Source of the DNA: a virus
Strand: one strand, 5' to 3'
Virus record (IMG/VR): IMGVR_UViG_3300045885_000312
Coordinates: 1-38,383 of that record
DNA: 38,383 nucleotides
A model generated the notes under the pieces. The model searched no databases. It was given only the letters and a program-made list of their open reading frames with translations, and was not told where the DNA came from. A program made the position numbers and the translations under genes. Positions within the stretch are counted from its first letter, which is position 1. Every line of letters begins with the position of its first letter. Below, piece after piece: positions 418 through 38,383 of this stretch.

Positions 418-1989
418 ATGCGGCGTTGCGCTCTGGCATTTTTGGTGCTCCTGGTGGGGTATGGCAGTGTGCTCGCGGGCGGCCTGACGTTTCCCGGTGG
501 GGGGAGCGGGGGAGGAGGAGCAGGCGCTGCCTCGGAGCTGACGTTTGCGAATGATGCCTGCGTTACGGCCACCGATACCCAGAATGCGGTGGAACAAGCG
601 GCACAGCGCATCTGTTCGGGCACGCTTGCGGCTCGGACCGCCTATTTCACGGCTCCCAGTCTCGGGCAACAGTGGTATGTCACCGATGGTACGACCGAAA
701 CCGACTGCGAAATCGGCGGCGAGGTGACGACGCCGCACAATGTGAAATGCATTTACAATGGGTTGGAATGGGTCTATGATGTCGCGCAGATCATTATCGA
801 CACCGTCGACGCCATTACCGACATTGCTGTCGGTGTGCGGGATGCCTCAGCCAATACTAACCTCGTCACCCGTGATCTGGGACAAGCTGTTGCAACGCAG
901 CAGGTGACTGCCGACACGAATACCCTGTCCTGTGGCACGATTCTCTATTCCTCCTATACCCTCCTCGTCTCGACGAATAGTGGGGCCATTAATCTCGCCT
1001 CAAATCCGCAACTGGCTGATGGGACTAATAACCAGCTCTGTATGCTCTGTGGCACCTCGGATGCTAATTATCCCATTCTCGAAGATGGGAACGGGCTAGA
1101 TTTGCGCAGTGCTGCCAACATGCAGAATCTCTTCTGCCTGCAACTCCAGTACGTCCAGGCCGATGATGTGTGGCGGGAACGCTGGCGTACGCCGACGGCC
1201 GCGGTCGGCGGGACCGATACGCAGTGTATTTTTATGGACGGAGCCACGCCGAATGGCGATGCGGGCTGTACCTACAACAAGACGACGAATGTCTTGACGG
1301 CCACAGGCGGCTTTGTCTCCACCTGTGACTTTGCGACGGAAACGTGCATCAATACCGAAGTCCATGAAACCACCGCGCCGGCTGATCCCACTGATACCGG
1401 CAGGTGCACCTGGGGGTTTCACGCCAACGAGCTGAAATGGTTTTGCGGGGGCGATAGTCTCAAAAGTGCTGTAGACGCAGGAGCCGCTGCGAGAGGGCGG
1501 CTGCTCTGCTCTCGGGCCATGCCTCCCGCGACTGCCTTTGCGACTCTCGATGTACGGGCAGGCGGTAGCACGCCTGCAGAACAAGTCGAAGTATTTGATT
1601 TTGATGATACCACCGCAGAACACATGGATTTTCTTTGCGAGCTCACGGCGGACTATGCCGGGGGCGGCTTAAGTTGCGTCGTCACTTGGTCGGCAACGAC
1701 GGCGACCACGGGCGCTGTGCAATGGGAGCTCGCTTTCCGGCGCTTAGCCGATGATGCGGAAGACATCGACACCTCGCAGACGTATGATTTCAACACCGTC
1801 AGCACCACCACGGCGAGCGCGAGCGGCGAAGTCCAGTACAGTACGATTGCCTTCACCCATGGGGCGGATATGGATAGCCTGGCCGCGGGGGAAGTCGCTA
1901 TTCTGCGGCTGCGTCGCAATCCCGCGGGCACCGATGACCTCACCGGAGATGCCGAATTATGGCACCGTCCTTTGTGTACCGAACCCTGA
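418..1989 (+). CDS. Exported cysteine-rich fibre-like protein
   Basis: This 523-aa protein starts with a Sec-type signal peptide: MRRC followed by a hydrophobic stretch ending near LAGG at residues 20-22. A glycine-rich linker follows (about 24-36). The middle is beta-rich and has well over a dozen scattered cysteines. The last 140 residues, with an AGGGLSCVVTW-like segment and a MDSLAAGE motif, resemble C-terminal modules I associate with phage fibre and appendage proteins. GGAG lies 8-9 nt before the ATG. It is the first gene after the promoter at 303-331 and overlaps the next gene by 31 nt. A signal peptide and many cysteines are unusual for a virion fibre and suggest export to an oxidising compartment. 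No enzymatic motif is visible and the exact function is unknown. Confidence 0.75.
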   Translation: MRRCALAFLVLLVGYGSVLAGGLTFPGGGSGGGGAGAASELTFANDACVTATDTQNAVEQAAQRICSGTLAARTAYFTAPSLGQQWYVTDGTTETDCEIGGEVTTPHNVKCIYNGLEWVYDVAQIIIDTVDAITDIAVGVRDASANTNLVTRDLGQAVATQQVTADTNTLSCGTILYSSYTLLVSTNSGAINLASNPQLADGTNNQLCMLCGTSDANYPILEDGNGLDLRSAANMQNLFCLQLQYVQADDVWRERWRTPTAAVGGTDTQCIFMDGATPNGDAGCTYNKTTNVLTATGGFVSTCDFATETCINTEVHETTAPADPTDTGRCTWGFHANELKWFCGGDSLKSAVDAGAAARGRLLCSRAMPPATAFATLDVRAGGSTPAEQVEVFDFDDTTAEHMDFLCELTADYAGGGLSCVVTWSATTATTGAVQWELAFRRLADDAEDIDTSQTYDFNTVSTTTASASGEVQYSTIAFTHGADMDSLAAGEVAILRLRRNPAGTDDLTGDAELWHRPLCTEP

Positions 1990-2693
1990 TCGCGTTGCTC
2001 CTGTGGGGCCTCGTGCCCGGTCTGGCTTGGAGCGCTCGGCTGTTTAACGATGCCTCAACAGAGCGGCTCGATAACACCACCTCGGCTCCTGTCACTGCTG
2101 TGCCCCTGACCATTTGTGCATTGTTCAAGGTCGATGACAACGCGATTGATCATATGCTCGTGCAGATTCAGGACAAGGATTCGGCGACGAATCTGCTTGG
2201 GATTCAAGCGCCATGGACGGTTGCGAATGATCCGGTCCGCGCCGTCGCAAATTCTGGAGGCGGGTTGTTTAATAGCAGTATCAATACTGGCGGCACGACG
2301 GGCGTTTGGCGGCACGTGTGCGGGCGCTTCCCGGCTACCACCAGTCGCTTTGTCTGTCTTGGCACGACGGGTTGTGGCACCGAAGGGACTCAAACCGTCA
2401 CGCCAACAGGGCTCGATAGTCTCACGGTTGGGGCTGCAGGCGATAGTACGCCGAATCAGTACCTGAGCGGGGATATTGCCGAGGTGAATGTGTGGTCTGT
2501 TAGTCTCTCGGCAGATCAGACCATTGCCTTGAGTAAGGGGTTCACGCCGCATGAAATCGGCAACCTGGCCGACCTGGTCTTTCGTGCTGATCTGATCCGT
2601 AACCTAAATGATGCGGTCGGGGGCCGCAATTTGACCGCGACAGGCACCACGGTCAGTGTACATCCTCGTATGAGCAGGAGGCTGCTGGAATGA
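1959..2693 (+). CDS. Exported LamG/concanavalin-like protein
   Basis: This 244-aa protein has an N-terminal signal peptide (residues 8-26, hydrophobic, ending in a WSA cleavage-type site). One beta-sandwich domain fills the rest. The pattern of a short strand, VWRHVCGRF, and a late DIAEVNVWSVSLSADQ segment is typical of LamG/concanavalin A-like folds (Laminin_G_3), which often bind carbohydrate. Four cysteines could form two disulfides. The ATG at 1959 is preceded by GGAG at about 11 nt and overlaps the upstream gene by 31 nt; it also overlaps the next gene by ATGA, so the set is translationally coupled. It is likely a surface or extracellular sugar-binding protein, but a virion accessory protein is possible. 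Confidence 0.72.
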   Translation: MAPSFVYRTLIALLLWGLVPGLAWSARLFNDASTERLDNTTSAPVTAVPLTICALFKVDDNAIDHMLVQIQDKDSATNLLGIQAPWTVANDPVRAVANSGGGLFNSSINTGGTTGVWRHVCGRFPATTSRFVCLGTTGCGTEGTQTVTPTGLDSLTVGAAGDSTPNQYLSGDIAEVNVWSVSLSADQTIALSKGFTPHEIGNLADLVFRADLIRNLNDAVGGRNLTATGTTVSVHPRMSRRLLE

Positions 2694-4687
2694 TTGCCTT
2701 GCTCCTGCTCCTCCTCACTGCCATGCCGGTCTGGGCCACGGACTACTACTTTGATCCCGTGGGTGGCAATGATGCAAATCCCTGCACAGAAGCACAACCC
2801 TGCAAGACCGATGCGGCGGTGCAGGCAAAGCTCGATGCCCGATCGGCCAGTGATCGCTTCTTTTTCAAGCGCGGCACGACGATGCTGGTAAATCCGGTCT
2901 TGCTCATCAGTGGCACGCCCGGCGGAACCCAGGCGAACCCCCTCCTCCTGGACGCCTATGGCACGGGGGCACATCCCATACTCGACAGTACAGCCGTCGG
3001 TGGGGCCTATACCCTCACCTGTAGCAACGTTGCATGGATCACTATCCGCAACCTGGAAATTCGCGCTGCCAAGGGTATTATCTTTGCGGGCTGTACGAAC
3101 TTCGTCCTGACCGGCATGCGCTTTACCGGGGATTTTGTCAATGAAGTCGTCCGGATTAAAAAGTCGAGCACCGGGGCCGATAGTGCCAATGGGCGGCTTG
3201 CCGAAAACGTGTGGAATCTCACCGATGCCTCTGAGTATATCTATCTCGGCACCGATATTGCGCAGGGCGGGGAGGATTTTCCCCACGATATCACCATTGA
3301 AGACAACGAGTTTGACGGCAATACGACGAACGTTGGCGGAGAAGCCATTGAGGCCAAGGCTGGCGTGTACAACCTCACTATCCGGCGTAATTACTTCCAC
3401 CATACGAACCGTGGTACCAACTCGAACGGCCTCTTGTTCTCCTCCATGGGCACGCTCACTACGTATCCCTTTTGCAACTGTGTTGTGGCCTATAACTGGA
3501 TCGAAAACACCACAGGCACCCAGGCCCATGCCCTGGAATACCGCAATAGCCTGAACGCCTATGGAAACATCATCATCAACAATGCCCAGCATGGCGTGAA
3601 CCTCACGGATCCGAACAACCTCGATTTCACCCGGACAGTGACCTACAATACGTTTTATGCCAACGCTGGGGCTTCGATCAATGATACGGGCGGGGATAAC
3701 GATACCAAAGCCAACAATGTCGCCTGGGCCAATGGGAGCGTGAATGATGCGAGCAATCCCCTGTTTGTCGATGCTGCAGCCCGGAACTTTCGGCTTCAGG
3801 CCGGTTCCCCTGCCCTGACCCGTGGCGCTTTGCGGGCGGTCACTCCCACCGCAGCCACGATTCTCGCCAACGGGACCAGCGTTCGGGTAACCAGTACGCT
3901 GGCCGTGCCGCCGGTCCAGAGCTGTACGGCGGCGGGGTTTGCCTTAACGTGTAGCCCGGCGGGCAGTCAAACCGCCGTCTCCTGCACGCCAGACGGCACG
4001 ACGGATGTGCTCTTGGGCCTGGCAACGGCTGTCCAGCAAGGGGCCACCTGTACCCTCGACATCGCGGCGACGTCGCTGCTTGATGATGCTAGGATCGGCG
4101 GTATTTTTGCGCCCGTAAGCACGAATAGCGGCACGAATTATGCCGTCAATGCCCTCGCGATGACCAATACAAGTACTGTGGGGCAGACCGAGGCCAACCT
4201 GTTGACCGTGACCAATATGGTCCCTGGCACCTGTCCTGAGTGTGCCTCGAATCGGCCTTGGAGTGTGCTCCTGGATCTGGACATGGCCAGTGAGAATGGC
4301 AGTGCGGGGAACCATACGATTACCAGTTTCAGTGGTGAGCATGATCTGGGCACGCTCGCCGAACTCGCCACATTCAGCGCGTGGTGTGATGTCATCGGCA
4401 TATGGAATACCCAGCACGTCACCTTCGAGTACAAAGTGAATAGTGGCGATGCCTACACGGTCGGCGTGAATCATCAGGTCTGTAATGCGAATCAATGGTT
4501 CCTCTTCCCTCTGGGCAATGTCAGCGGGCGGTATGTGCGTATCACATTCTTTTGCGAGACTGCCTGCGATGGGACACAAGCCCGAGAAATCCATCTCGCT
4601 GGTACTCCGGGGGAATTACCGCTCCCAGGTACACGCACCATTACACGGCGGGGGCTCATCGCCCGGAAGGGAGGCGTTGCACGGTGA
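2690..4687 (+). CDS. Exported right-handed beta-helix protein with C-terminal discoidin-like domain
   Basis: The 665-aa product begins with a short signal peptide (residues 1-16, poly-leucine, cleavage after WA). Residues 18-370 read as a right-handed parallel beta-helix of the pectate-lyase type. The opening YYFDPVGGNDANPC followed by FKRGTT, repeated short N-rich turns, and the closing NPLFVDAAARNFRLQAGSPA are hallmarks of secreted polysaccharide-active beta-helices. A small beta domain rich in cysteines follows (about 380-470), then a discoidin-like (F5/8 type C) module with RYVRITF near 620. AGGAGG precedes the ATG. Such helices occur both as phage tailspikes and as secreted polysaccharidases. 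The signal peptide and roughly 15 cysteines favour export. Catalytic residues cannot be assigned by eye. Confidence 0.75.
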   Translation: MIALLLLLLTAMPVWATDYYFDPVGGNDANPCTEAQPCKTDAAVQAKLDARSASDRFFFKRGTTMLVNPVLLISGTPGGTQANPLLLDAYGTGAHPILDSTAVGGAYTLTCSNVAWITIRNLEIRAAKGIIFAGCTNFVLTGMRFTGDFVNEVVRIKKSSTGADSANGRLAENVWNLTDASEYIYLGTDIAQGGEDFPHDITIEDNEFDGNTTNVGGEAIEAKAGVYNLTIRRNYFHHTNRGTNSNGLLFSSMGTLTTYPFCNCVVAYNWIENTTGTQAHALEYRNSLNAYGNIIINNAQHGVNLTDPNNLDFTRTVTYNTFYANAGASINDTGGDNDTKANNVAWANGSVNDASNPLFVDAAARNFRLQAGSPALTRGALRAVTPTAATILANGTSVRVTSTLAVPPVQSCTAAGFALTCSPAGSQTAVSCTPDGTTDVLLGLATAVQQGATCTLDIAATSLLDDARIGGIFAPVSTNSGTNYAVNALAMTNTSTVGQTEANLLTVTNMVPGTCPECASNRPWSVLLDLDMASENGSAGNHTITSFSGEHDLGTLAELATFSAWCDVIGIWNTQHVTFEYKVNSGDAYTVGVNHQVCNANQWFLFPLGNVSGRYVRITFFCETACDGTQAREIHLAGTPGELPLPGTRTITRRGLIARKGGVAR

Positions 4688-5061
4688 ACCGCTTACGGCT
4701 CGTCAGTCTGTGTCTTTTGCTGCCTGGGACGCTCTGGGCAGGCAGTATTACCAGTCAGCAACGCACCGTGCCCTATACGGCACTCGTTGCCGTGGATCAA
4801 ACCGCCGTGGAGGTATTGCTGGACTTCAACGCTGATAGTGTCGCAGACCCTGCACGCATGGTCAGTATCTACAACGCCTCTGGCGACGGCGTGTATTGCA
4901 CCACGCGGGGCACGGCCACAGCCACAGGAGCCCCACTCGTCACCGGTCAAGCGTATACGTTTCCTCCCGAAGGCGTGCAAGGTTCACCACTCCCTACACG
5001 CTTATCGTGTATCTGCGGCAGTGGCGATACCGCTACACTGCACATCTGGGCCTATCCCTAG
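4684..5061 (+). CDS. Small exported beta-rich protein
   Basis: This is a 125-aa protein. The GTG at 4684 is chosen because GGGAGG lies about 11 nt upstream and the codon overlaps the stop of the beta-helix gene as GTGA. That start gives a clean signal peptide (NRLRLVSLCLLLPGTLWAG), whereas an upstream extension to 4495 would lie inside the previous gene and bury it. The mature part is predicted beta-rich with three cysteines (VYC, LSCIC). I do not recognise a family. It closes the four-gene exported cassette and could be a partner or small domain of the large neighbours. Confidence 0.68.
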   Translation: MNRLRLVSLCLLLPGTLWAGSITSQQRTVPYTALVAVDQTAVEVLLDFNADSVADPARMVSIYNASGDGVYCTTRGTATATGAPLVTGQAYTFPPEGVQGSPLPTRLSCICGSGDTATLHIWAYP

Positions 5062-5074
5062 AGAGGACAGGGCT

Positions 5075-5422
5075 ATGCCATGGCGTCCTGCCACACATCA
5101 ATCACACGGGAGAACTCTGCGCGATCAGCGCTACGATGCCGAGCATCAGGACACGACGGCCAAGCAGGTGCGCAACTCGGCACGCTGGCAAAAGCTCCGG
5201 GCTGTGGTCCTGAACACCACGCCGCTCTGTGCTGATCCGTTCCTTGTGCATAGGGGTTCTCCGGTGCCTGCAACGCAGGTCGATCATATCATCCCGCTCG
5301 ATCAACGGCCTGATCTGGCCTATAACCTCGACAACCTGCAAGGACTGTGTACGTTCTGCCACAGTCGCAAGACCACGATGGAACGGCGACGCAAGAGGAT
5401 GATGTTCCAGGGGGAGGGGTAG
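5075..5422 (+). CDS. HNH endonuclease (packaging-associated)
   Basis: This 115-aa protein carries a compact HNH nuclease motif: VDHIIPL (Asp70-His71), NLDNLQGLC (Asn87) and CTFCHSRK (Cys92, Cys95, His96). Cys52 probably completes a zinc site with the later CxxC. It sits directly before the small and large terminase genes, an arrangement known in many cos-type HK97-like phages, where HNH proteins stimulate terminase cleavage. The start at 5075 follows a GAGAGGA ribosome site. The reading frame is open further upstream, but those starts overlap the preceding gene and lack support. Confidence 0.88.
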   Translation: MPWRPATHQSHGRTLRDQRYDAEHQDTTAKQVRNSARWQKLRAVVLNTTPLCADPFLVHRGSPVPATQVDHIIPLDQRPDLAYNLDNLQGLCTFCHSRKTTMERRRKRMMFQGEG

Positions 5423-5537
5423 GGCACGATGCCAACTTGGCCAGGCAGGGGGGAGGCAAGAAACTTTGAGCGCGTTGCCGCCACACCGACGCGCTAGCCA
5501 TGCACATTTTTTCACAACTTTTCAATAGGTTAGAGGT
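5423..5537. other. HNH-TerS gap, possible cos region
   Basis: This 115-bp gap interrupts an otherwise tight gene order. It contains a G-rich stretch near 5440-5458, a perfect inverted repeat AGCGCGT (5469-5475) with ACGCGCT (5489-5495), and a T6 run at 5507-5512. The T-run is too far from the stem for a standard terminator. Because the HNH-TerS-TerL order marks cos-packaging phages, this gap is a reasonable place for cos, but no cohesive-end sequence can be assigned. Confidence 0.3.
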
Positions 5538-6044
5538 ATGGGACAACGCGGAACCAAGCCAACGCCAACAAAAATCCTGGAGATGCGTGGTTCTTGGCGT
5601 GCGAAAGCACGCGAGGGGGAGCCACGCCCTGAGCCATCGGGAGACCAGGCGAAAGCTCCGGGATGGATGGACCGGAAAAGCCAGACGTTGTTTCGCAAGA
5701 AGGTGGCCCAGATGGCCGAAGTGGGCACGATGACAGCCCATGATGTCGAAGCCTTGGCGCGGTATTGTCGCCTGTATACCCGTTACCGGGCGGCAGAAGA
5801 ATATCTCATGCGGCATGGTTCGACATTGGACAGTTATATCCTCGATAAAGAGGGCAATGCATTTCTCGCAGGCGTGAAAATCCGGCCTGAAGCGCAGCTC
5901 GCCAATACCCTGGCCGCGGAACTCTTACGGCTTGAAAACCATTTCGGGTTTACGCCAAGTGCCAGAACCGCCTTGCGCGTCGACAAGAAGGCCCAGCATG
6001 CCGACACTGACCAGAAAACGCGGCTCTTCCGTCAAAAAGTCTAG
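5538..6044 (+). CDS. terS: Terminase small subunit (P27 family)
   Basis: The 168-aa protein fits the P27/Terminase_4 family: a basic N-terminal GQRGTKPTPTKIL segment, a PxPEP-like linker near 28-33, and a helical core with LARYCRLYTRYRAAEEYL. It recognises phage DNA and recruits the large subunit at the start of packaging. Its length is normal for the family. It lies between the HNH gene and TerL, and its 3' end overlaps TerL by 47 nt. A GGTTAGAGGT sequence with GAGG just upstream of the ATG serves as ribosome site. Confidence 0.88.
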   Translation: MGQRGTKPTPTKILEMRGSWRAKAREGEPRPEPSGDQAKAPGWMDRKSQTLFRKKVAQMAEVGTMTAHDVEALARYCRLYTRYRAAEEYLMRHGSTLDSYILDKEGNAFLAGVKIRPEAQLANTLAAELLRLENHFGFTPSARTALRVDKKAQHADTDQKTRLFRQKV

Positions 6045-7731
6045 TATTGCCCCTGAGTGGCAGCGGCTGTTACGCCAGATTCCTGGGTATGATCCGATTG
6101 CCACCGCGGGAGACGCCTGGTTTGACGCGGAGATTGCGCAACGCATGCTCGATTTTTTCCCGCTGTGCCTGCGCCATATTGAAGGGCGGCTCGCACGCCA
6201 ACCCTTTCAGTTAGAGCCTTGGCAGCAAGCGATTGTGGCTAATCTCTTTGGTTGGCAACGCCGGGATGACCGCGGCGATCAGGTCCGACGCTACCGCGAA
6301 TTGTTCCTGTATGTGCCGCGAAAGAATGGGAAAACGCCTCTCGTAGCCGGCTTGGGCCTTGCCGTCCTGTTCTGCGATGACGAAGAAGGCCAGCAGAATT
6401 ATATTGCGGCGGGCGATCGCGAGCAGGCAGGCAAGCTCTTTCGGTATGCCAAGCGCATGATCGAACTCGATCCCGACTTAGAAAAGCAGTGCCGCATCTA
6501 TGGCGGGAATGCCACGGCGGGGCAATCGCGCTCGATCGTGATTGAGGAGGAGGCGAGCTTTCTGCGGATTATTGCGACGGATGCCGATACCGCGCATGGG
6601 GATACAACACACTTGGCGATTATTGATGAGCTGCATGTGCAGCCGAATCGGGGGTTTTTTGATACGGTCCGCACCTCGTTTGCCTCGGAGAATCGCAAGC
6701 AACCGCTCTTTATCCAGCTTACGACAGCTGACTATGACCGGCCAAGCGTCTGTAATGATCAGTACAGGATCGCGAGTGCGATACGTGATGGGCGTATGGA
6801 CAATCCCAGCTTCTTGCCAGTGATTTATGAAGCGCCTCGTGCACGAGAGGGCGTTGATCTCGACTATACCGATCCAAAGATATACGAAGATGAAGCTCTT
6901 TGGGCAATTGCGAATCCGAATTTGGGTGTCAGCGTCTCACGAGCCTATCTCCGCAATGAATGCGTAATGATCAAGGAGACTCCGAGCGCTCTCCCTACGT
7001 TCTTACGCTTGCATTTGAACGTTCGGACGCAGCAAGTTGCGCTGTGGATAGACTTGCAGCGCTGGGATGCGAGCGCGGGGATTGTGGATGCGGACGCTTT
7101 ACGCGGCAAGCCCTGCTATGCGGGCCTGGATTTAGGCGCGACCTCTGATTTGACCTCGTTGACTCTGGTGTTTCCGCCTGATGACGAACATCCCTACCGT
7201 GCCTTGTTTTTTAATTGGGTGCCTGAAGAAACGGCCAAGAAACGCGAGAAGCATGGGGATATTGTGTACATGAACGCTTTATCCCAGGGCGAACTCACCA
7301 CGACAGAAGGCGACGAAATTGACTACGCAACGGTGCGTGCCGACATTAAACGGTTGAAAACGCAGTATAATATCCAAGAAATTGCGGTTGATCGGTTGTT
7401 TCAAGGCGTGGAGTTTTGCCAGGAGCTGGCGAAAGACGGTTTCAAGGTCATCGACTTTGGGCAGGGGTATCTCTCGATGACTGCGCCGACCAAGGAATTT
7501 GAACGGCTGATCAATCGCAAAGAGTTTTGGCATGGTGGCGTGGGGCTGGTACGCTGGGCAGCGGGAAATTGTGTGGTACGTGGCGATCAAGAAGGCCGGA
7601 TGAAGCCCGATAAAGAACGGAGCGCTGACAAGATCGATCCGATTGTGGCTGCCATTATGGGTCTTGGCCGCGCCATGGAACGTCAAGAGACGGATAGCGT
7701 GTATGAAACACGGGGAGTGTTGCGGATATGA
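5998..7731 (+). CDS. terL: Terminase large subunit (HK97-type ATPase/nuclease)
   Basis: This 577-aa protein is the packaging motor. The ATPase half has a Walker A PRKNGKT (residues 107-113) and a Walker B LAIIDE (Asp210-Glu211), followed by a coupling-type region. The C-terminal nuclease half has a RNase H-like first strand, AGLDLGATSD (Asp378), a middle IAVDRLF strand and a late DKIDP motif (Asp544/Asp547). This matches the Terminase_1/YmfN-like group. ATG 5998 is preferred because AAGAAGG lies 6-7 nt upstream. An upstream non-ATG start at 5932 would deepen the overlap with TerS and lacks a site. The next gene overlaps by ATGA. Confidence 0.95.
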   Translation: MPTLTRKRGSSVKKSSIAPEWQRLLRQIPGYDPIATAGDAWFDAEIAQRMLDFFPLCLRHIEGRLARQPFQLEPWQQAIVANLFGWQRRDDRGDQVRRYRELFLYVPRKNGKTPLVAGLGLAVLFCDDEEGQQNYIAAGDREQAGKLFRYAKRMIELDPDLEKQCRIYGGNATAGQSRSIVIEEEASFLRIIATDADTAHGDTTHLAIIDELHVQPNRGFFDTVRTSFASENRKQPLFIQLTTADYDRPSVCNDQYRIASAIRDGRMDNPSFLPVIYEAPRAREGVDLDYTDPKIYEDEALWAIANPNLGVSVSRAYLRNECVMIKETPSALPTFLRLHLNVRTQQVALWIDLQRWDASAGIVDADALRGKPCYAGLDLGATSDLTSLTLVFPPDDEHPYRALFFNWVPEETAKKREKHGDIVYMNALSQGELTTTEGDEIDYATVRADIKRLKTQYNIQEIAVDRLFQGVEFCQELAKDGFKVIDFGQGYLSMTAPTKEFERLINRKEFWHGGVGLVRWAAGNCVVRGDQEGRMKPDKERSADKIDPIVAAIMGLGRAMERQETDSVYETRGVLRI

Positions 7732-10319: not shown

Positions 10320-11695
10320 CGATCCATAGAGCCATGGCGGATCTCTCGGAGTACAAACGCCAGGCTGCCGAGTTGTTAGATCAGGCCGACGCGATCAAAG
10401 GCCAGGCGGAAGCCGAGCATCGCGGCATGACGGAGGAAGAACGGAAGGAATATAGCGATGTCATCGAGCAAGCGTATGCCCTGGAGGAGGAATATCAGCG
10501 CGAATTTGCCGCAGATCAGCGCGCGGCGGATGAAGCGTTAGCCAAAGTGGCTCGCCAAGATATTCTTGGCAGTGCAGCCCATCAGCGGCTGTCCCAGAGT
10601 CCCTATAGCCGTGTGACGCGTGTCCATCGGCGGCTGTACACCGATCCTGCTCGTGGGTTTGCCTCGTTCGGCGATTTTGCCCTCACCATTCAGCAAGCCT
10701 ATACGCCTGGCAATCCCCACATGGACGAGCGCTTGCTGCAAATTTCTGCCCAGACAGGCATGAACCAGGCCCAGGGCTCCGAGGGGGGCTATGCGGTGCC
10801 ACCGCAGTTCCTCACCTCGATCTGGGACGGGCTGAATGAAATGCCCGATAACCTGATGCAATACTGCGATGTCTACACGATCACGGGCGATAGTTTGACC
10901 ATCCCAGCCAATGCCGAAACGTCGCGGGCCACAGGCAGCCGCTACGGGGGTGTGCGGGCGTACTGGATTGCGGAGGGAGGGCAGATCACGAGTAGCTTCC
11001 CGCGCTTGCGGCAGATGAAACTGGAACCGCAAGAACTGGCAGCCCTTATCCCGATTACCAATAAGCTCCTGAATAATGCGCCGGCCTTGGGGCAATACTT
11101 AACCCGTGCGGCCACGGATGAGATTGGCTTCCTGGTCAACGATGCGATCCTGAATGGCGATGGGGTGGGTAAGCCCAAAGGCGTGCTGACGAGCTCCTCG
11201 TTGATTACCGTGGCAGCGGAAGGCGGCCAGGGCCTCGATACGGTGGTCGATGAGAACATCGAGAAGATGCATGCCAGATTACACAGCCGTGCCCGGTCCG
11301 GGGCAGCCTGGTATGTGAATCAAGATGTTGAGCCGCAGCTCAACGGCCTGCTCGTAGGCACCTGGCCGGTGATGCTCAACCCTGTTGGCGGCTTTCCCAG
11401 TATGGCGACGGCGCCGGTGCGTACCCTCAAGGGCCTGCCGATTCGTACCATCGAGTATGCCGATACCGTCGGCAATGTGGGCGATATTACGCTGCTCAAT
11501 CTGGGCTATTACGCGCTGGGCGTGCGAGCAGGCGGCATCGAGCAAGCCATGTCGATCCATCTGCGCTTCGATTTTGCGGAATCGGTTTTCCGCTTCATGT
11601 TTGCGGTGGACGGGCAATGCTGGCTGGAACAGCCGTTAACGCCCTTTAAAGGCACCAATACCCTGTCGCCCTTTGTGGCACTCGCAGCCCGCTAA
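10304..11695 (+). CDS. Major capsid protein (HK97 fold)
   Basis: This 463-aa protein has the two parts of an HK97-type capsid precursor. Residues 10-95 form a charged, helical delta/scaffold-like domain. The mature shell domain begins near the serine/arginine-rich stretch at about 100-110, with EGGYAVPPQFLTSIWD, a long ELAALIPITNKLL helix region, and GDGVGKPKGVL in the G-loop area. The S49 protease just upstream is the expected processing enzyme. AAGGAG lies before ATG 10304. A second ATG at 10334 is less well placed. No covalent cross-link residues can be confirmed by eye. Confidence 0.93.
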   Translation: MPGEVTIHRAMADLSEYKRQAAELLDQADAIKGQAEAEHRGMTEEERKEYSDVIEQAYALEEEYQREFAADQRAADEALAKVARQDILGSAAHQRLSQSPYSRVTRVHRRLYTDPARGFASFGDFALTIQQAYTPGNPHMDERLLQISAQTGMNQAQGSEGGYAVPPQFLTSIWDGLNEMPDNLMQYCDVYTITGDSLTIPANAETSRATGSRYGGVRAYWIAEGGQITSSFPRLRQMKLEPQELAALIPITNKLLNNAPALGQYLTRAATDEIGFLVNDAILNGDGVGKPKGVLTSSSLITVAAEGGQGLDTVVDENIEKMHARLHSRARSGAAWYVNQDVEPQLNGLLVGTWPVMLNPVGGFPSMATAPVRTLKGLPIRTIEYADTVGNVGDITLLNLGYYALGVRAGGIEQAMSIHLRFDFAESVFRFMFAVDGQCWLEQPLTPFKGTNTLSPFVALAAR

Positions 11696-11739
11696 AGGAC
11701 CCGTCCTATCGCCTGCCAGGGGGCAAAAAGGAGGAACGT

Positions 11740-12219
11740 ATGAAGCTGGTTGAACTGATGGGACTCGAAACCGGGGTGGCACCGAAAGACATCACCGGGG
11801 CGGCACAGACGGGCGATTATGTCAGCCTGAAAAACTATAGCCACTGCACCGTTGTGATCATTCAAGGCGCGTGGGCAGCCGGTACGCCAGCCGTGACGTT
11901 ACTGCAAGCAACGGATGTGGCCGCCTCGGGCGAAAAAGCCTTGGGCTTTACGAGTCGTTGGAGCAAAGTAGGCCTCGGCACGACCACGCAATTTGCGCAT
12001 ACGGATGTGGCCTCGAATACGTTTAACCTGCCCAATACGGCGAATACGATCACCGTGCTTGAAGTGGATGCCAACACGCTCGACACCAACAACGGCTTTG
12101 ATTGTATGCGCGTTGGGATTGCTTCGCCGGGAGCCAATGCGGATTTATTGAGCGTGCTCTATATCCTGAGTGGGGCACGGTACGCACAGGCAGCGATGCC
12201 GGATGCCAAGGTGGACTAG
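11740..12219 (+). CDS. Putative head protein after capsid
   Basis: The 159-aa protein has an excellent ribosome site (AAAAAGGAGGAACGT before ATG). It is beta-rich, with threonine and alanine repeats and the segment YVSLKNYSHCTVVIIQGAWAAGTPAVTLLQA. This general layout is seen in small structural proteins encoded after HK97-type capsid genes, possibly decoration or head-associated proteins. I cannot assign a defined family. Its position between capsid and the head-tail connector supports a virion role. Confidence 0.75.
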   Translation: MKLVELMGLETGVAPKDITGAAQTGDYVSLKNYSHCTVVIIQGAWAAGTPAVTLLQATDVAASGEKALGFTSRWSKVGLGTTTQFAHTDVASNTFNLPNTANTITVLEVDANTLDTNNGFDCMRVGIASPGANADLLSVLYILSGARYAQAAMPDAKVD

Positions 12220-15817: not shown

Positions 15818-18800
15818 ATGGCACTGATTGGCTCACTCGTTGTCTCGCTCGTGGCACGGACTGCCGAATTTGAGCGCGGGTTGAACCGTGCCCGGCAACA
15901 AGTCCAGACAACCGCCTCAAGCATTCGCGGGGTCAGTGCCGGCATGGCGGCCTCGTTTGGCGCGGTCAGCGCGGCGATAGGGGCCATTGCGGCCAATCGT
16001 GGCTTGCAAGAGATTATCCGCGTTGGCACGGCGATGGAAGGCACCAGAGCTGCCTTCCAGGCGATTACGGGCTCTGCGGAAGCGGCACGGGCCGAACTGG
16101 CCTTTGTGAGCCAGGTCTCACAAACACTGGCGACTGACTTACTCACCAGTACCAAGGCGTACCAGAGCATTGCCGCTGCAGCACGGGGTACGGCGTTGGA
16201 AGGCAAAGCCACGCGCGACATTTTCCTGGGTGTGTCGCAAGCGGCACGCGTCCTGCAACTCTCGGGCGAAGAGGTGTCAGGGGTACTCAATGCGGTCTCG
16301 CAGATCATGAGCAAGGGCACCGTGAGTAGTGAAGAGCTCCGTGGGCAGATTGGCGAGCGCTTACCAGGGGCCTTTAACATTGCCGCACGAGCGATCGGTG
16401 TCACCACGAAAGAGCTGTCAGACATGCTGGAGCAGGGACGCATCCTCTCCGCAGATTTCCTCCCCAAGTTTGCTGCCCAACTCCAGAAAGAGTTTGCCGG
16501 GGGGGTCGAAAAGGCGACACAAACGGCGGGAGCTGCCTTTCAACGGGCTGCCAATGATATTACCGCCATGGCCGCGGCGTTGGCGGATTCAGGCTTATTG
16601 CGCTGGCTCGCGAACGCTACCGAGGGGTTTACGAAACTGGCGGCTGAAGCAGTGGGGGCCTCTCGCACGACACGGAGAGCCCTGGCTGAAATTCAGACGC
16701 AGGCACCAGGAGCCTCAGAGGCCAGTCAACGCCGCTTTGTCGAACTGGCTGAAGAGCGGCAACGCGCGACACGCCGCATTCAGGAGATTGAGGACAGCAT
16801 TGCGCGCTCCACCATTGGCGGGGTGTACTTTGGCATCGATATGAAGCAGCGGCAACAACAGATTGCCGCCATTAAAGAGCAGATTCGGGAAATTGACCGG
16901 CTGAGTGCTGCACTCCTGGAGAATCAGCGCCAACTCGAACAAACCGCTGCACGCGAAACCATTGCCGAAGTCCCAACACAAGGCGTCTTTGATGCCGAAA
17001 TCGCCAATGTCAGAAAGCGCGTGGACGAACTCCGGAAAGCGATGGACGACATCCGGCGGCAAGGGGAATTGGGCATGCCGGGCCTGGATGTGGCCGCAGA
17101 ACAAAGCAAAGTCCTGCTCAAGGGCTTGCAGGACATTACCGAAGAACTCGCTAAGCAGCCCGGCCTCGTTGCCAATCTCCCCAAGGGCATTCAGGATACC
17201 TTGAGCGCCGCACGGCTCGATGTCGTCAAACAGACGATTACGGATATTACTGCACGGTCGAACGAGTTGCGTACGTCGGTACGCGATTGGAAAGACCCGC
17301 TGGAGCAGAATAGGGCCGAGCTCAACTTTATCGAGCAGCAACTCGACAAGCTCGTTGACACGTTTGGCGTCATGCGGGAAGGGCAAAAAGTCCTGGATCT
17401 GACCGATGCGCCGGAAACCGCACGTCAGGTGCAGGCGCTGATTCAGCGGGTGCAGGAATTGCGCCAAGGATTGCTCGATGTCAAGGAAGCCCGGAAGCAG
17501 GACCGTGCGGAAGAAGCCGCGGCCAGGCGTGAAGCTGAGCAAGCTGAGCGCTTCATGGAATCCCTCCGAGCCGAAGCGAAATTGCGGGCTGATGCGTTGC
17601 AGATTCGGGACCGGGAATCTGTGGCCAGTCAACGCCAGATCGCTCTCATGGAACTGGAAGCCAACATCCGTGAACGAGGCATTACGCTTAGCGCGGAGCA
17701 ACGAGCTGAGGCTGAGAAGCTTGTGCAGGCTACGGCGACATCGATCGCTGCCTTGGAAGCGATGCCCCTGCGGCAAGAAGCCATGCAGGCACAAGCGGAA
17801 GCCCAGCGGAACCTGCTCACCAGCATGGCACAGGAAATCAATCTGCGGGGGCAACTGCTCGACATTCAGCGCTTGAGCGACACGGAACGGGACATTGCCG
17901 CACAGGCGTTGACGATGGAAGCCGAATTGACGGCGAATGGCGTGACGATTACCGAGCATTTACGGGCGGGTATCCGACAACTCGCCGCAGAGTATGTGCG
18001 GCTGGGCGGGGCTATCGAGGCGGTGAATGAGTCCAGAGCGATTGAGCAACGCTTTCAACAGTCGCGGACAGAGACCTTTACCGATCTCGCACGGGAACTG
18101 AATCATCTCACCGCGCTCGTCGATATCCAACGCAAGAACCGCGTGGAGCGGGAGCGTGAATTGATCGTGCTCCAGACGAAGCGGCAACTGGTAGGGCAGG
18201 TCAGCGCGGAAGAGGAAGCCGCACTACGCCAGTTTGCCACGGAGATGCAGCGACTCAATACGGACCTGCAACGGCGACATCCGTTGCGCGACTTTTTTGA
18301 GTCGACCGAGGATTTTTGGGTCAACATGGAAGACATCGGCGTGGAGGCGATTCAGGGGCTTGGCGATGCCTTGGAAGAATTTGCCAAGACGGGTAAGTTC
18401 TCGGTCAAAGATATGATCGATGATATCATCGGCCAACTCGCCAGGCTTGCGGCGGCCACGCTCGCCAGTGAGGCCTTCCGGCTCTTCCAACCGAAAGAAG
18501 GAGGAACCCCAAGTACCGCAACAACCTGGCTCAATACCGCATTAAGCCTTGCCGCTACTGCCCTGGGATCACGAACGAACTCCGCCGCAACGCCATCCAG
18601 TTCTGGGACGCCGTCCGGGTATGGCGATGCCACGCTGATTCCCCATCGCGGCGGCATTATCGGCAGAGATACTTTTCCCCGTATCGCGCTGCCCTCAGCG
18701 GTCTTTACGCATGCGCAACGCTTTGCCATGGGCGGCCTGATCATGAGTCGTGGGGGCGATAATGTTCCCGCCTTGCTCCAGACGGGCGAGCGGGTCTTGA

Positions 18801-26400: not shown

Positions 26401-27085
26401 TGAACAGCATTGCCGCACGCATCAAGCCAACGAGACGTTTGTCTTGTTGGAGAGTATTGTCCGGGCTACGAAGCGGCTCTTCAGTCCTGCCCTCCTTGGC
26501 ACCACACATCACTACAAAGCCGTGCCTGAAGGTATCAACATTAGCGCGGTGACCGGCCAGGCGCATGTCCTCCTTGGCACGAGTAGCAAAGCCTGGGCTC
26601 CTGTACTTCTCAGTGTCGAAAAGGACGGGGATGATTGGGAGATTACCTGGTTGCATCGTAGTCGCATACGTGGAGCCTGGGTCGATCTGGCAGGCATTGC
26701 CTATGATACCGATGATTTGCGCACCTACACGATCACGTTCTATACCAGTCGGGCGTATACCACAGTCCAGGCAACCTATACGACGGCTGTCTATAGCGAT
26801 CCTGAAGCGACACGCACCTTTACCTATACGCTGGCACAGCAGACTGCCGACTTTGGCGCGGAACAAGAAGTGATTTATATCGGCATTCGCAGCGGGACAA
26901 CGAATCAGCAAGGCTACGAGACGCGCTATCCTACTGCCGCATTTGATGCCTGGGAAGCCGATTGGGAAGCGGACACGGGCTTAGCGAATCCCGGCTGGGA
27001 AGCCGATTGGGAGTATTACACCTGGCCGCCGTCGTCAGGAAACGCGCAAGAGGCGTGGAATGCCGATTGGGAGAATGAACCCTAA
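23405..27085 (+). CDS. Tail-tip / host-specificity protein with propeller-like insertion
   Basis: The protein has 1226 aa from GTG 23405 in a GTGA overlap. N-terminal IGFAAAGLAVGAYLG and the YRWHGMIALCEGPISRITRIYTDATLIY block, together with LPTSVNVVYRSPL and LEPGDLLTIHTAAG further on, match the GTA gp15-like putative tail protein (Phage-tail_3). Between them, residues about 250-630 contain repeated blades such as GFIWVANTG, GACWVISHA and GNCWVVCETA, the pattern of an NHL/Vgb-like beta-propeller. The last 50 residues contain three tryptophan-rich repeats (WEADWE). The tip complex contacts the host and may bind its receptor. Confidence 0.85.
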   Translation: MTARQGVQIGFAAAGLAVGAYLGNPQLGLAIGTVLGAVVANVAFPLDDIINKQDNLADVPITSAAIGQMKPIVYGVWPLGGNIIWTYPKIAIEHSETVDGGGKGGFGGPKTVNVTTTYRWHGMIALCEGPISRITRIYTDATLIYDEAQPEGWTVSRGLPNGEPDSPEESVTLPDTIIYEKANADSLTKFTLFRGTATQEPWAFAESLEDVGEGLLPAYRHTVVVGVTMDLGVTGRVPNLRFEVSTTDEALGVPFAVHWLPEEKALWSVWKQSVADVSGDGFAIRYDATSFMRERFVSLRPSLESLPRGTRAPVATTVGQTLAGQDAVMVLRQDSSMAVFVGSTGNVIHRRINPLTTEEEEELGTLGLDGDLAVRPNLQDGNRTTLLYTLSDVPALGQVETHTGTETYTFQRLTLAGTPHAVVWNEEETSAYVSIPDEGMVQRITGYSPLTVAEAIACGEEPTTLFVASTGQCWVTARGSAEVFRFTTSGDLSAAIAVGVAPHDLTEASDGFIWVANTGEPTVCRINPTSLAVQTFTLPAAPVRVMGALEDGACWVISHAGRWAALVNDDGTYALMALPRGPSDLTVDEFGNCWVVCETARTLVKVNTEATEILQAENANALACVVRDVNLRAGMPEEWIDVSGLDGTPVHYALFGVAAASRALEDLAMAFQFLAVETATGIKYLFKGGAPVATIHESATLVAAQNEGTLAIERAQPQELPTSVNVVYRSPLRHYHTDEQTKTKPTDGPTIPVIQQIAPAFDDAQYAKDLAEILLYEPVFARYAAKLQAPPMAARLEPGDLLTIHTAAGQTYDVRLLKSALGTDNRVEWDTIRHRSYLYEGFQSLPAEGDPGEVIIPQLAPIEVHIVEPVPLPDETESTHLLFALTKKATTLQNEPLPLVTVYESTDNEATYSPVKVLARQATVGTIATALPNGATHTWDRSIMVEVVLRPGSPALTAATEAAPHYAMIGEECIAFTTPTLVGERTYNLSVILRGAQGSEQHCRTHQANETFVLLESIVRATKRLFSPALLGTTHHYKAVPEGINISAVTGQAHVLLGTSSKAWAPVLLSVEKDGDDWEITWLHRSRIRGAWVDLAGIAYDTDDLRTYTITFYTSRAYTTVQATYTTAVYSDPEATRTFTYTLAQQTADFGAEQEVIYIGIRSGTTNQQGYETRYPTAAFDAWEADWEADTGLANPGWEADWEYYTWPPSSGNAQEAWNADWENEP
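26951..27072 (+). repeat. Tryptophan-rich repeats at the tail-tip C-terminus
   Basis: TGGGAAGCCGATTGGGA occurs at 26951-26967 and again at 26996-27012, with a diverged third copy at 27056-27072. They encode WEADWE, WEADWE and WNADWE. The near identity of the DNA points to recent duplication. Confidence 0.8.
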
Positions 27086-36779: not shown

Positions 36780-37193
36780 ATGCACAGTGTGAGGGTGAGC
36801 TTTGCGCTTGTGGGGCTCGGGCTTCTCGTCCTGCCCTTGCTGGTGTGTGCAGCCCCTGTGTATCTCACGTGTACGCTCAAGGCGAGCGAGACGACCTATC
36901 AAGTATCATTGACTGTCGAGCAGGAGCAGGGAACGGTCACCACGACTTCTGAGAATGGCGCGGCTTTTAAAGCTCAAGGATTCTTTACCCCGGATACGAT
37001 AACGTTCCAGGAGGTTATGCCGTCAACAACGGGGATCATGACAACCAGAAGATTTCAATTACAGCGTAAAGATTTATCGATTCAGGAAACGCTCATTATA
37101 GAAGCGCCGAAATTTAAAACACAGATTGCCCCTGTATCGATTAGTCGTTATGGGACCTGTCAGATTGTTGCTGCAACCAAGAATAAGATTTGA
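36780..37193 (+). CDS. Exported protein near integrase (lysogenic-conversion candidate)
   Basis: The 137-aa protein starts with a signal peptide (VRVSFALVGLGLLVLPLLVC and AAP as probable cut) followed by a beta-rich domain with two cysteines (LTC, GTC). GGGAGGGG precedes the ATG. It stands alone between repressor and integrase, a common site for genes expressed in the lysogen. No known family is recognised. Envelope or surface function, such as exclusion of other phages, is inference. Confidence 0.72.
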   Translation: MHSVRVSFALVGLGLLVLPLLVCAAPVYLTCTLKASETTYQVSLTVEQEQGTVTTTSENGAAFKAQGFFTPDTITFQEVMPSTTGIMTTRRFQLQRKDLSIQETLIIEAPKFKTQIAPVSISRYGTCQIVAATKNKI

Positions 37194-37241: not shown

Positions 37242-38291
37242 ATGACCATCTTTCTCCGCGGCACATCTTGGTACTACGAATTTCAATTGCGGGGTGTCCG
37301 TCATGTGAAGGCGCTTGGACCGATTACCAAAACTCAGGCGAAGCGTGAGGAGCAACTGGCGCGTGCCAAAGCTCTCGAAGGGACACTTGCCGCACAGGCA
37401 CCACGCAGCAGTCCACGCTTTGCCACCTTCGCCCATGAGTATCTCCCCTGGTACGCCAGTAGTCGCCGTCCGAGCAGTGCCCGGCGGTATCGGGATGCCC
37501 TGAAACCCCTCGTGGCCTTCTTTGGCCCAGAACGGCTCGCCCATCTTTCTCTGCTCAGTGTCGAACGGTATAAGCAATACCGGCTGGCACAAGGCGTGAG
37601 TCCGGTCACCGTCAATGCCGAGCTGAAAACGCTCCGCCACATGTACAGTACCGCGCTCGCGTGGGGCAAACTGACCACGAACCCCCTGGCCACCCTGAAG
37701 CGCTATCGGACGGCCATACGTCACATGCGCACCTTGAGCATGGACGAAGAAGCCCGCTTACTGGCCGCCTGTTCGAACACGGTACGACCGCTCGTACTCG
37801 TGGCCTTGTATGCCGGGTTGCGACGTGGAGAACTTTTAGCGCTCCGGTGGGGGCATGTCGATCTGGCGCATCGTCTGGTTACGGTCGACGCGGCGACCGC
37901 CAAGTCGGGCAAGACCCGCAGTATCCCGCTGAATGCCACCGCGCTTGCGGCTTTCCAGGGCCTGTACACGGGGCAGACACGCGACGAGCCGGTATTTCTG
38001 AACTTCTACGGGCAACCGCTTTATGATCCCAACTGGGGTCTACGGCAAGCGATCTCTCGCAGCGGCATTGCCCCATGCCGTTTGCACGATCTGCGGCATA
38101 CCTTCGCCAGTCGCCTGGTCCAGGCCGGCGCCGATCTGCGCAGTGTCCAGGAGCTCATGGGCCATGCCAGTCTGCGCGATACCGAACGTTATTTGCACCT
38201 GCAACCCGGCCAGACGCGCACCGCAGTCGCGCTTCTCGACTCCCATCAAAAATCCCAACAGCAGAAATCTCCCAGAAAAATAAAAGGATGA
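37242..38291 (+). CDS. int: Tyrosine integrase
   Basis: The 349-aa integrase has a basic N-terminal region, a SAM-like core-binding domain at about 58-155 (FATFAHEYLPWYASSRRPSSARRYRDALKPL) and a catalytic domain with Arg194 (GLRRGEL), probable Lys221 or Lys224 (KSGKTR), His282-x-x-Arg285 (HDLRHTF), His308 (MGHAS) and nucleophile Tyr317 (ERYLHL). It integrates the circular genome at attP, probably in the adjacent 36-417 region. The last 11 codons lie inside the terminal repeat. The ribosome site is weak. Confidence 0.95.
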   Translation: MTIFLRGTSWYYEFQLRGVRHVKALGPITKTQAKREEQLARAKALEGTLAAQAPRSSPRFATFAHEYLPWYASSRRPSSARRYRDALKPLVAFFGPERLAHLSLLSVERYKQYRLAQGVSPVTVNAELKTLRHMYSTALAWGKLTTNPLATLKRYRTAIRHMRTLSMDEEARLLAACSNTVRPLVLVALYAGLRRGELLALRWGHVDLAHRLVTVDAATAKSGKTRSIPLNATALAAFQGLYTGQTRDEPVFLNFYGQPLYDPNWGLRQAISRSGIAPCRLHDLRHTFASRLVQAGADLRSVQELMGHASLRDTERYLHLQPGQTRTAVALLDSHQKSQQQKSPRKIKG

Positions 38292-38383
38292 TTCTTCTTT
38301 TATATCAACAGGTTCTACGCTACCAAAGTTTCTCCTCCGCTGACCGACGTAGTCAGCTTATAACTATTTTCCCTTGGAACTGT
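38257..38383. repeat. Second copy of the 127-bp terminal repeat
   Basis: Identical to bases 1-127. It starts inside the last codons of the integrase and runs into the non-coding region that continues at position 36. Merge it with the first copy before counting genes or mapping reads. Confidence 0.93.

Follow-up and report, generated by a model that had tools for sequence, protein, structure and literature searches.

Judged by sequence, the last ~160 residues of protein P1 and the entire protein P2 are a conserved two-gene phage fibre module. They are encoded in a four-gene cassette of the window (the whole 38,383-bp stretch analysed here, an IMG/VR record). In this module, a gene for a fibre-tip beta-sandwich is directly followed by a gene for a LamG protein, on the same strand and in the same order. 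The window copy is a variant of this tip-LamG pair and not a typical member. The best reading of the cassette is an exported, disulfide-stabilised, fibre-derived glycan-binding set, which would be active outside the cytoplasm. What appears to be new is the origin of the P1 tip and P2, in which a known kind of virion module seems to have been retargeted for export.

The four genes and their predicted signal peptides

All four genes are on the plus strand. P1 (418–1989, 523 aa) is composed of a signal peptide, a fibre-like Cys-rich N-terminal part, and the fibre-tip beta-sandwich. P2 (1959–2693, 244 aa) is a signal peptide followed by a complete phage LamG protein (Laminin_G_3, E 3.2e-10). P3 (2690–4687, 665 aa) contains a signal peptide, a probable right-handed beta-helix, and a C-terminal part. 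P4 (4684–5061, 125 aa, GTG start) contains a signal peptide and a remainder of 106 aa. The tight gene overlap described in the initial annotation is confirmed: P1/P2, P2/P3, and P3/P4 overlap by 31, 4, and 4 nt. SD-like sites are present upstream of the starts of P1 (GGAG), P2 (GGAG), P3 (AGGAGG), and P4 (GGGAGG).

The same annotation assigned signal peptides to all four proteins, and the n-, h-, and c-region of a Sec-type signal peptide is indeed found at the true start of each. They correspond to 418–477 in P1 (20 aa, ending GSVLA/GG), 1959–2033 in P2 (about 25 aa, ending GLAWS/ARLF, with the first 31 nt overlapping P1), 2690–2737 in P3 (16 aa, ending MPVWA/TD), and 4684–4740 in P4 (19 aa, ending GTLWA/GS). 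The signal peptides were called by our own strict rule, which is positive for P1, P2, and P3; that of P4 was identified by eye, since the start assigned to this gene by the ORF caller was too far upstream. The rule gives 1.7% false positives on shuffled proteins and 24 positives among 1270 proteins in related loci. These low rates indicate that four signal peptides in a row are not due to chance. No lipobox of the Llp type is present at the cleavage sites of P1–P4, and signals for export across, or anchoring in, the outer membrane were not seen in these proteins either.

The mature P1–P4 contain 41 Cys in 1477 residues (2.8%), versus 60 in 7535 (0.8%) for the other structural proteins, a 3.5-fold enrichment (Fisher P = 5e-9). 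In agreement with the contrast drawn previously, a single Cys is present in each of the fibres at 27085 and 27730. The description of the proteins as Cys-rich is thus appropriate for the set as a whole. It is weak for P2, since its total of 4 Cys is inside the range of its relatives (0–5).

P3 probably starts as a secreted right-handed beta-helix protein, to judge from alignments. Its residues 19–104, a stretch of only 86 residues, match the GH136 lacto-N-biosidase 6kqs with an E of 1.7e-5. Weak matches to bacterial beta-helix-type proteins were also found, one of which (L195) has a signal peptide. Structure prediction had been proposed for all four proteins; it gave a pLDDT of 89 for the tip and 36 for the single-sequence AlphaFold model of P3. 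Of the folds originally suggested, the fibre tip, LamG, and (as probable) the beta-helix stand, while the discoidin-like C-terminus of P3 does not find support in a model of this pLDDT. The family searches gave no family and no detectable relatives for P4.

Origin of P1 and P2 from the tip-LamG fibre pair

The initial scan with P1 recovered one contig (L002), where the last 150 residues of P1 correspond to a separate protein that lacks a signal peptide. An alignment-based search extended the tip matches to more than 70 IMG/VR contigs of uncultured phages and three bacterial genomes (prophages). The tip domain corresponds to residues 357–517 of P1 (1486–1968, + strand; profile E 5e-75, with alignment and AlphaFold model), and it carries the tip motifs DDAED[LI]D and FT.GADMD. 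In nearly all relatives, the tip is a free-standing protein of ~170 aa starting with MASGD. Longer fibre-like proteins end with this domain in L050, L059, L070, L074, L079/L080, and L084, and likewise in the prophage loci L185, L187, and L190. P2 belongs to the LamG proteins starting with M-ARLF directly downstream of the tip (E 3.8e-75). LamG adjoins the tip in 72 of 86 LamG rows, redundant contigs and the window included. The homology of the P1 tip and P2 to non-exported phage fibre proteins, together with the signal peptides, supports the earlier proposal of exported fibre- or adhesin-like proteins.

The order, adjacency, and strand of the pair are shared by the window and its relatives, whereas several features are seen only in the window copy. 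These are the signal peptides, the Cys-rich N-terminal part that precedes the tip, extra Cys, the addition of P3 and P4, and the location before the terminase genes and next to the integrase gene. No credible signal peptide was found in the other tip proteins (63 distinct sequences besides that of the window) or in the other LamG proteins. Two rule positives, L081 and L092, were taken as false positives, as they lie inside the LamG domain itself. The tip of the relatives has a mean of 1.05 Cys, while that of the window has 4. The relatives of the pair sit among head and tail structural genes, while the window pair is located between the integrase gene and HNH-TerS. The start of P2 is inside P1; in L009, the LamG gene begins just past the stop of the tip gene. 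The P2 signal peptide ends AWS/ARLFNDAS, and the LamG proteins of the relatives begin M-ARLFDDAS. The cleavage point therefore abuts the homologous N-terminus, and the signal peptide replaces the start Met.

Signal-peptide proteins were also considered as a general trait of tip-LamG loci. This was rejected, as only about four loci (L015, L020, L027, and L056) have one within 2 kb, which is judged near background. In L015, the tip and LamG genes are separated by an inserted gene for a signal-peptide protein with 12 Cys (10481–11812, + strand). L098, a prophage-like record, encodes a signal-peptide LamG-like protein (16970–17767, + strand) among its structural genes, followed by a transposase-like ORF. 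This protein has no match to the tip or LamG profiles; it could be a separate case of a phage-carried, predicted secreted LamG protein.

The tip has no match among Pfam, NCBIfam, or PHROG models. It also has none in 50,697 annotated phage records, where two diverse tip relatives used as queries gave no match either. P1 and P3 have no relatives in the annotated phage collection, and no relatives were detected for the fibre-like part of P1. As single-protein queries of IMG/VR, P3 found no relative and TerL found one distant contig. A portal-based scan for sister phages gave 80 loci, none of which encodes any cassette protein, the tip and LamG included. The full cassette with its predicted export is known from one genome, with no close relative carrying it found.

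The AlphaFold model of the tip is a beta-sandwich. Its solved-structure matches include the carbohydrate-binding modules CBM11, CBM61, and CBM28, the Klebsiella K2 tailspike, and a viral turret, and these PDB matches are weak (E about 1e-4, TM about 0.4–0.5). Among viral folds, the tip is closest to phage proteins that are uncharacterised (TM about 0.7). At three of the tip Cys, C20, C76, and C176, Cys is seen in 0–1 of the 63 relatives; at C63, Cys is common among them. In the model, C20 is in the first strand and C176 is in the last strand. In the predicted hairpin 57–65/74–82, C63 is directly opposite C76 on the neighbouring strand, and the two are thus predicted to face each other as a disulfide would need. 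Two of the four Cys of P2, in CLGTTGC, are likewise at sites for which the residues listed in the relatives do not include Cys. Such new Cys would be expected if the proteins had adapted to an oxidising compartment.

Genome context and expression

The window is probably the complete genome of a temperate siphovirus-type phage, as it is closed into a circle by an exact terminal repeat of 127 bp (1–127 and 38257–38383). Since 127 bp is a common assembler k-mer size, the repeat probably reflects overlapping assembly ends of a circular genome rather than a terminal repeat physically present in the DNA. The head and packaging genes include HNH-TerS-TerL, the portal, an S49 protease, and an HK97-type capsid protein. 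The tail genes include the tape measure, DUF2460, the gp84 hub, and the tail-tip gene, behind which the fibres at 27085 and 27730 sit. RecT, a CI-like repressor, and a tyrosine integrase are also encoded. Between the repressor and integrase genes, at 36780–37193 (+ strand), a further protein of 137 aa is encoded (positive by the signal-peptide rule, SD AGGGAGG). It is the fifth with predicted export, and the family searches gave no family for it.

On the circular map, the order is the integrase gene (37242–38291, + strand; PF00589, E 1.9e-31), a non-coding stretch of 382 nt, P1-P2-P3-P4, and HNH-TerS-TerL. The HNH endonuclease gene (5075–5422, + strand; PF01844, E 1.1e-9), the first gene of the packaging block, begins 13 nt downstream of P4. 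It is followed by TerS (5538–6044, + strand), assigned by position and relatives, and TerL (5998–7731, + strand), which has matches in 1162 phage records. The non-coding stretch between the integrase gene and P1 (36–417) is presumed to contain attP. Its GC content of 40.6% is the lowest of 760 windows of the same size, and it is thus the most AT-rich region of the genome. This suits the presence of attP, of which a core was not identified.

A sigma-70-like promoter, TTGACA-17-TATTAT (303–331, + strand), with 11 of 12 matches to the consensus, is located about 85 nt upstream of P1. The promoter scan scored the match to the consensus only, and found 10 sites where 3.1 were expected. Of the promoter and attP proposed earlier, a promoter-like site and the AT-rich stretch next to the integrase gene are present. 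The interval between HNH and TerS (5423–5537) folds no better than shuffled sequences. As the cassette abuts the HNH-terminase block by 13 nt and no terminator is supported after HNH, expression late in infection and expression in the lysogen are equally likely, and the time of expression does not discriminate between the functions considered below. P1 could just be the first gene of the late operon, which weakens production by the lysogen, one of the options named earlier.

Possible functions and related systems

The explanation tentatively favoured here is that the cassette encodes a secreted form of a phage receptor-binding (tail-fibre) module, possibly acting on the surface of the producer. 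P1–P4 would be exported by Sec, and their disulfides would be formed by oxidation outside the cytoplasm. Glycan binding could be mediated by the beta-sandwich of the tip, the LamG fold of P2, and P3 with its probable beta-helix. The proteins might then act on the producing cell's own surface by occupying or trimming the sugar receptor of the phage, a less firm step than the preceding ones. Such masking or trimming would block superinfection, or keep progeny from sticking to the producer and debris. Action on the producer surface is preferred because the proteins are related to phage receptor-binding modules. The target of the proteins is the weakest step of this mechanism. In a diderm host, Sec alone takes proteins only as far as the periplasm, and the 13-nt link to HNH-terminase suits virion genes equally well. 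It is conceivable, at a lower probability, that a tailed phage shifted a whole receptor-binding module out of the cytoplasm by adding a signal peptide to every gene. Fibres oxidised in the envelope would then either attach to virions no earlier than lysis or act as free decoys or as a glycan-binding coat of the infected cell.

A surface system made by the lysogen, as suggested in the initial annotation, could be an adhesin of lysogenic conversion: the prophage would express the genes from 303–331, and the adhesion of the lysogen to surfaces, partners, or polymers would be altered. The promoter-like site, the position next to the integrase gene at a prospective prophage end, and the sugar-binding folds are all consistent with this. 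Phage-encoded bacterial surface adhesins of a similar effect exist as well, namely PblA and PblB of the Streptococcus mitis prophage SM1, which reach the surface via permeabilisation by holin and lysin (PMC2920869). The cassette proteins, as presumed prophage-encoded surface proteins, are likened to PblA/PblB by function, but carry their own predicted signal peptides. The cassette is, however, co-directional with the late block and abuts it, and no terminator was found between it and the packaging genes, so constitutive transcription would enter HNH and the terminase genes. An adhesin of the lysogen is less probable than the favoured explanation, but a serious rival to it.

Another serious but rather unlikely rival is that P1–P4 are virion parts assembled outside the cytoplasm, in the sense of fibres or decoration proteins that would be exported and oxidised in the periplasm before attaching to particles during or after lysis. 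The derivation of the P1 tip and P2 from a virion-type fibre pair, the contiguity with the packaging genes, and the disulfide-like Cys would fit such a role, but P1 has no recognised tail-anchor domain and fibres are already present at 27085 and 27730. To our knowledge, there is no precedent for envelope-assembled virion parts in tailed phages. It is very improbable that the N-termini are not used for export and that the proteins are ordinary fibres assembled inside the cell. Export is predicted by rule and by eye only, and P2 has alternative in-frame GTG/TTG codons at 1974, 1995, and 2013, the last preceded by GGGG. Nevertheless, signal peptides in four of four consecutive genes stand against the background rates of the rule given above, and the good SD sites at the chosen starts of P1, P3, and P4 and the Cys pattern also argue for export.

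The preferred reading, secreted fibre-derived proteins acting on the producer, can be compared with other exported proteins. Llp of T5 and Cor of the phi80 type are small exported phage proteins that stop superinfection or inactivation of progeny. They are lipoproteins or outer-membrane proteins and are not fibre-derived, in contrast to the cassette proteins, which lack a lipobox. Among secreted beta-helix carbohydrate-active proteins, P3 aligns with the GH136 enzyme LnbX at the start of the LnbX beta-helix. No signal-peptide-bearing tail-fibre module was found described in the literature searched. The earlier statement that no phage system of this composition has been described holds to that extent, although the composition is not wholly unprecedented because the tip-LamG pair itself is widespread.

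Phages normally produce and assemble their fibre proteins inside the cytoplasm. If the proposed export is true, a fibre pair retargeted as a set, with matching new Cys, would be a clear natural case of virion parts turned into secreted proteins. It would also provide a concrete route for phages to gain surface-altering or receptor-masking functions. The cassette draws attention to the widespread tip-LamG pair, whose tip matched neither a curated family nor an isolated phage genome in the searches made. It suggests that a virus may coat or modify the surface of its host with its own predicted sugar-binding parts.
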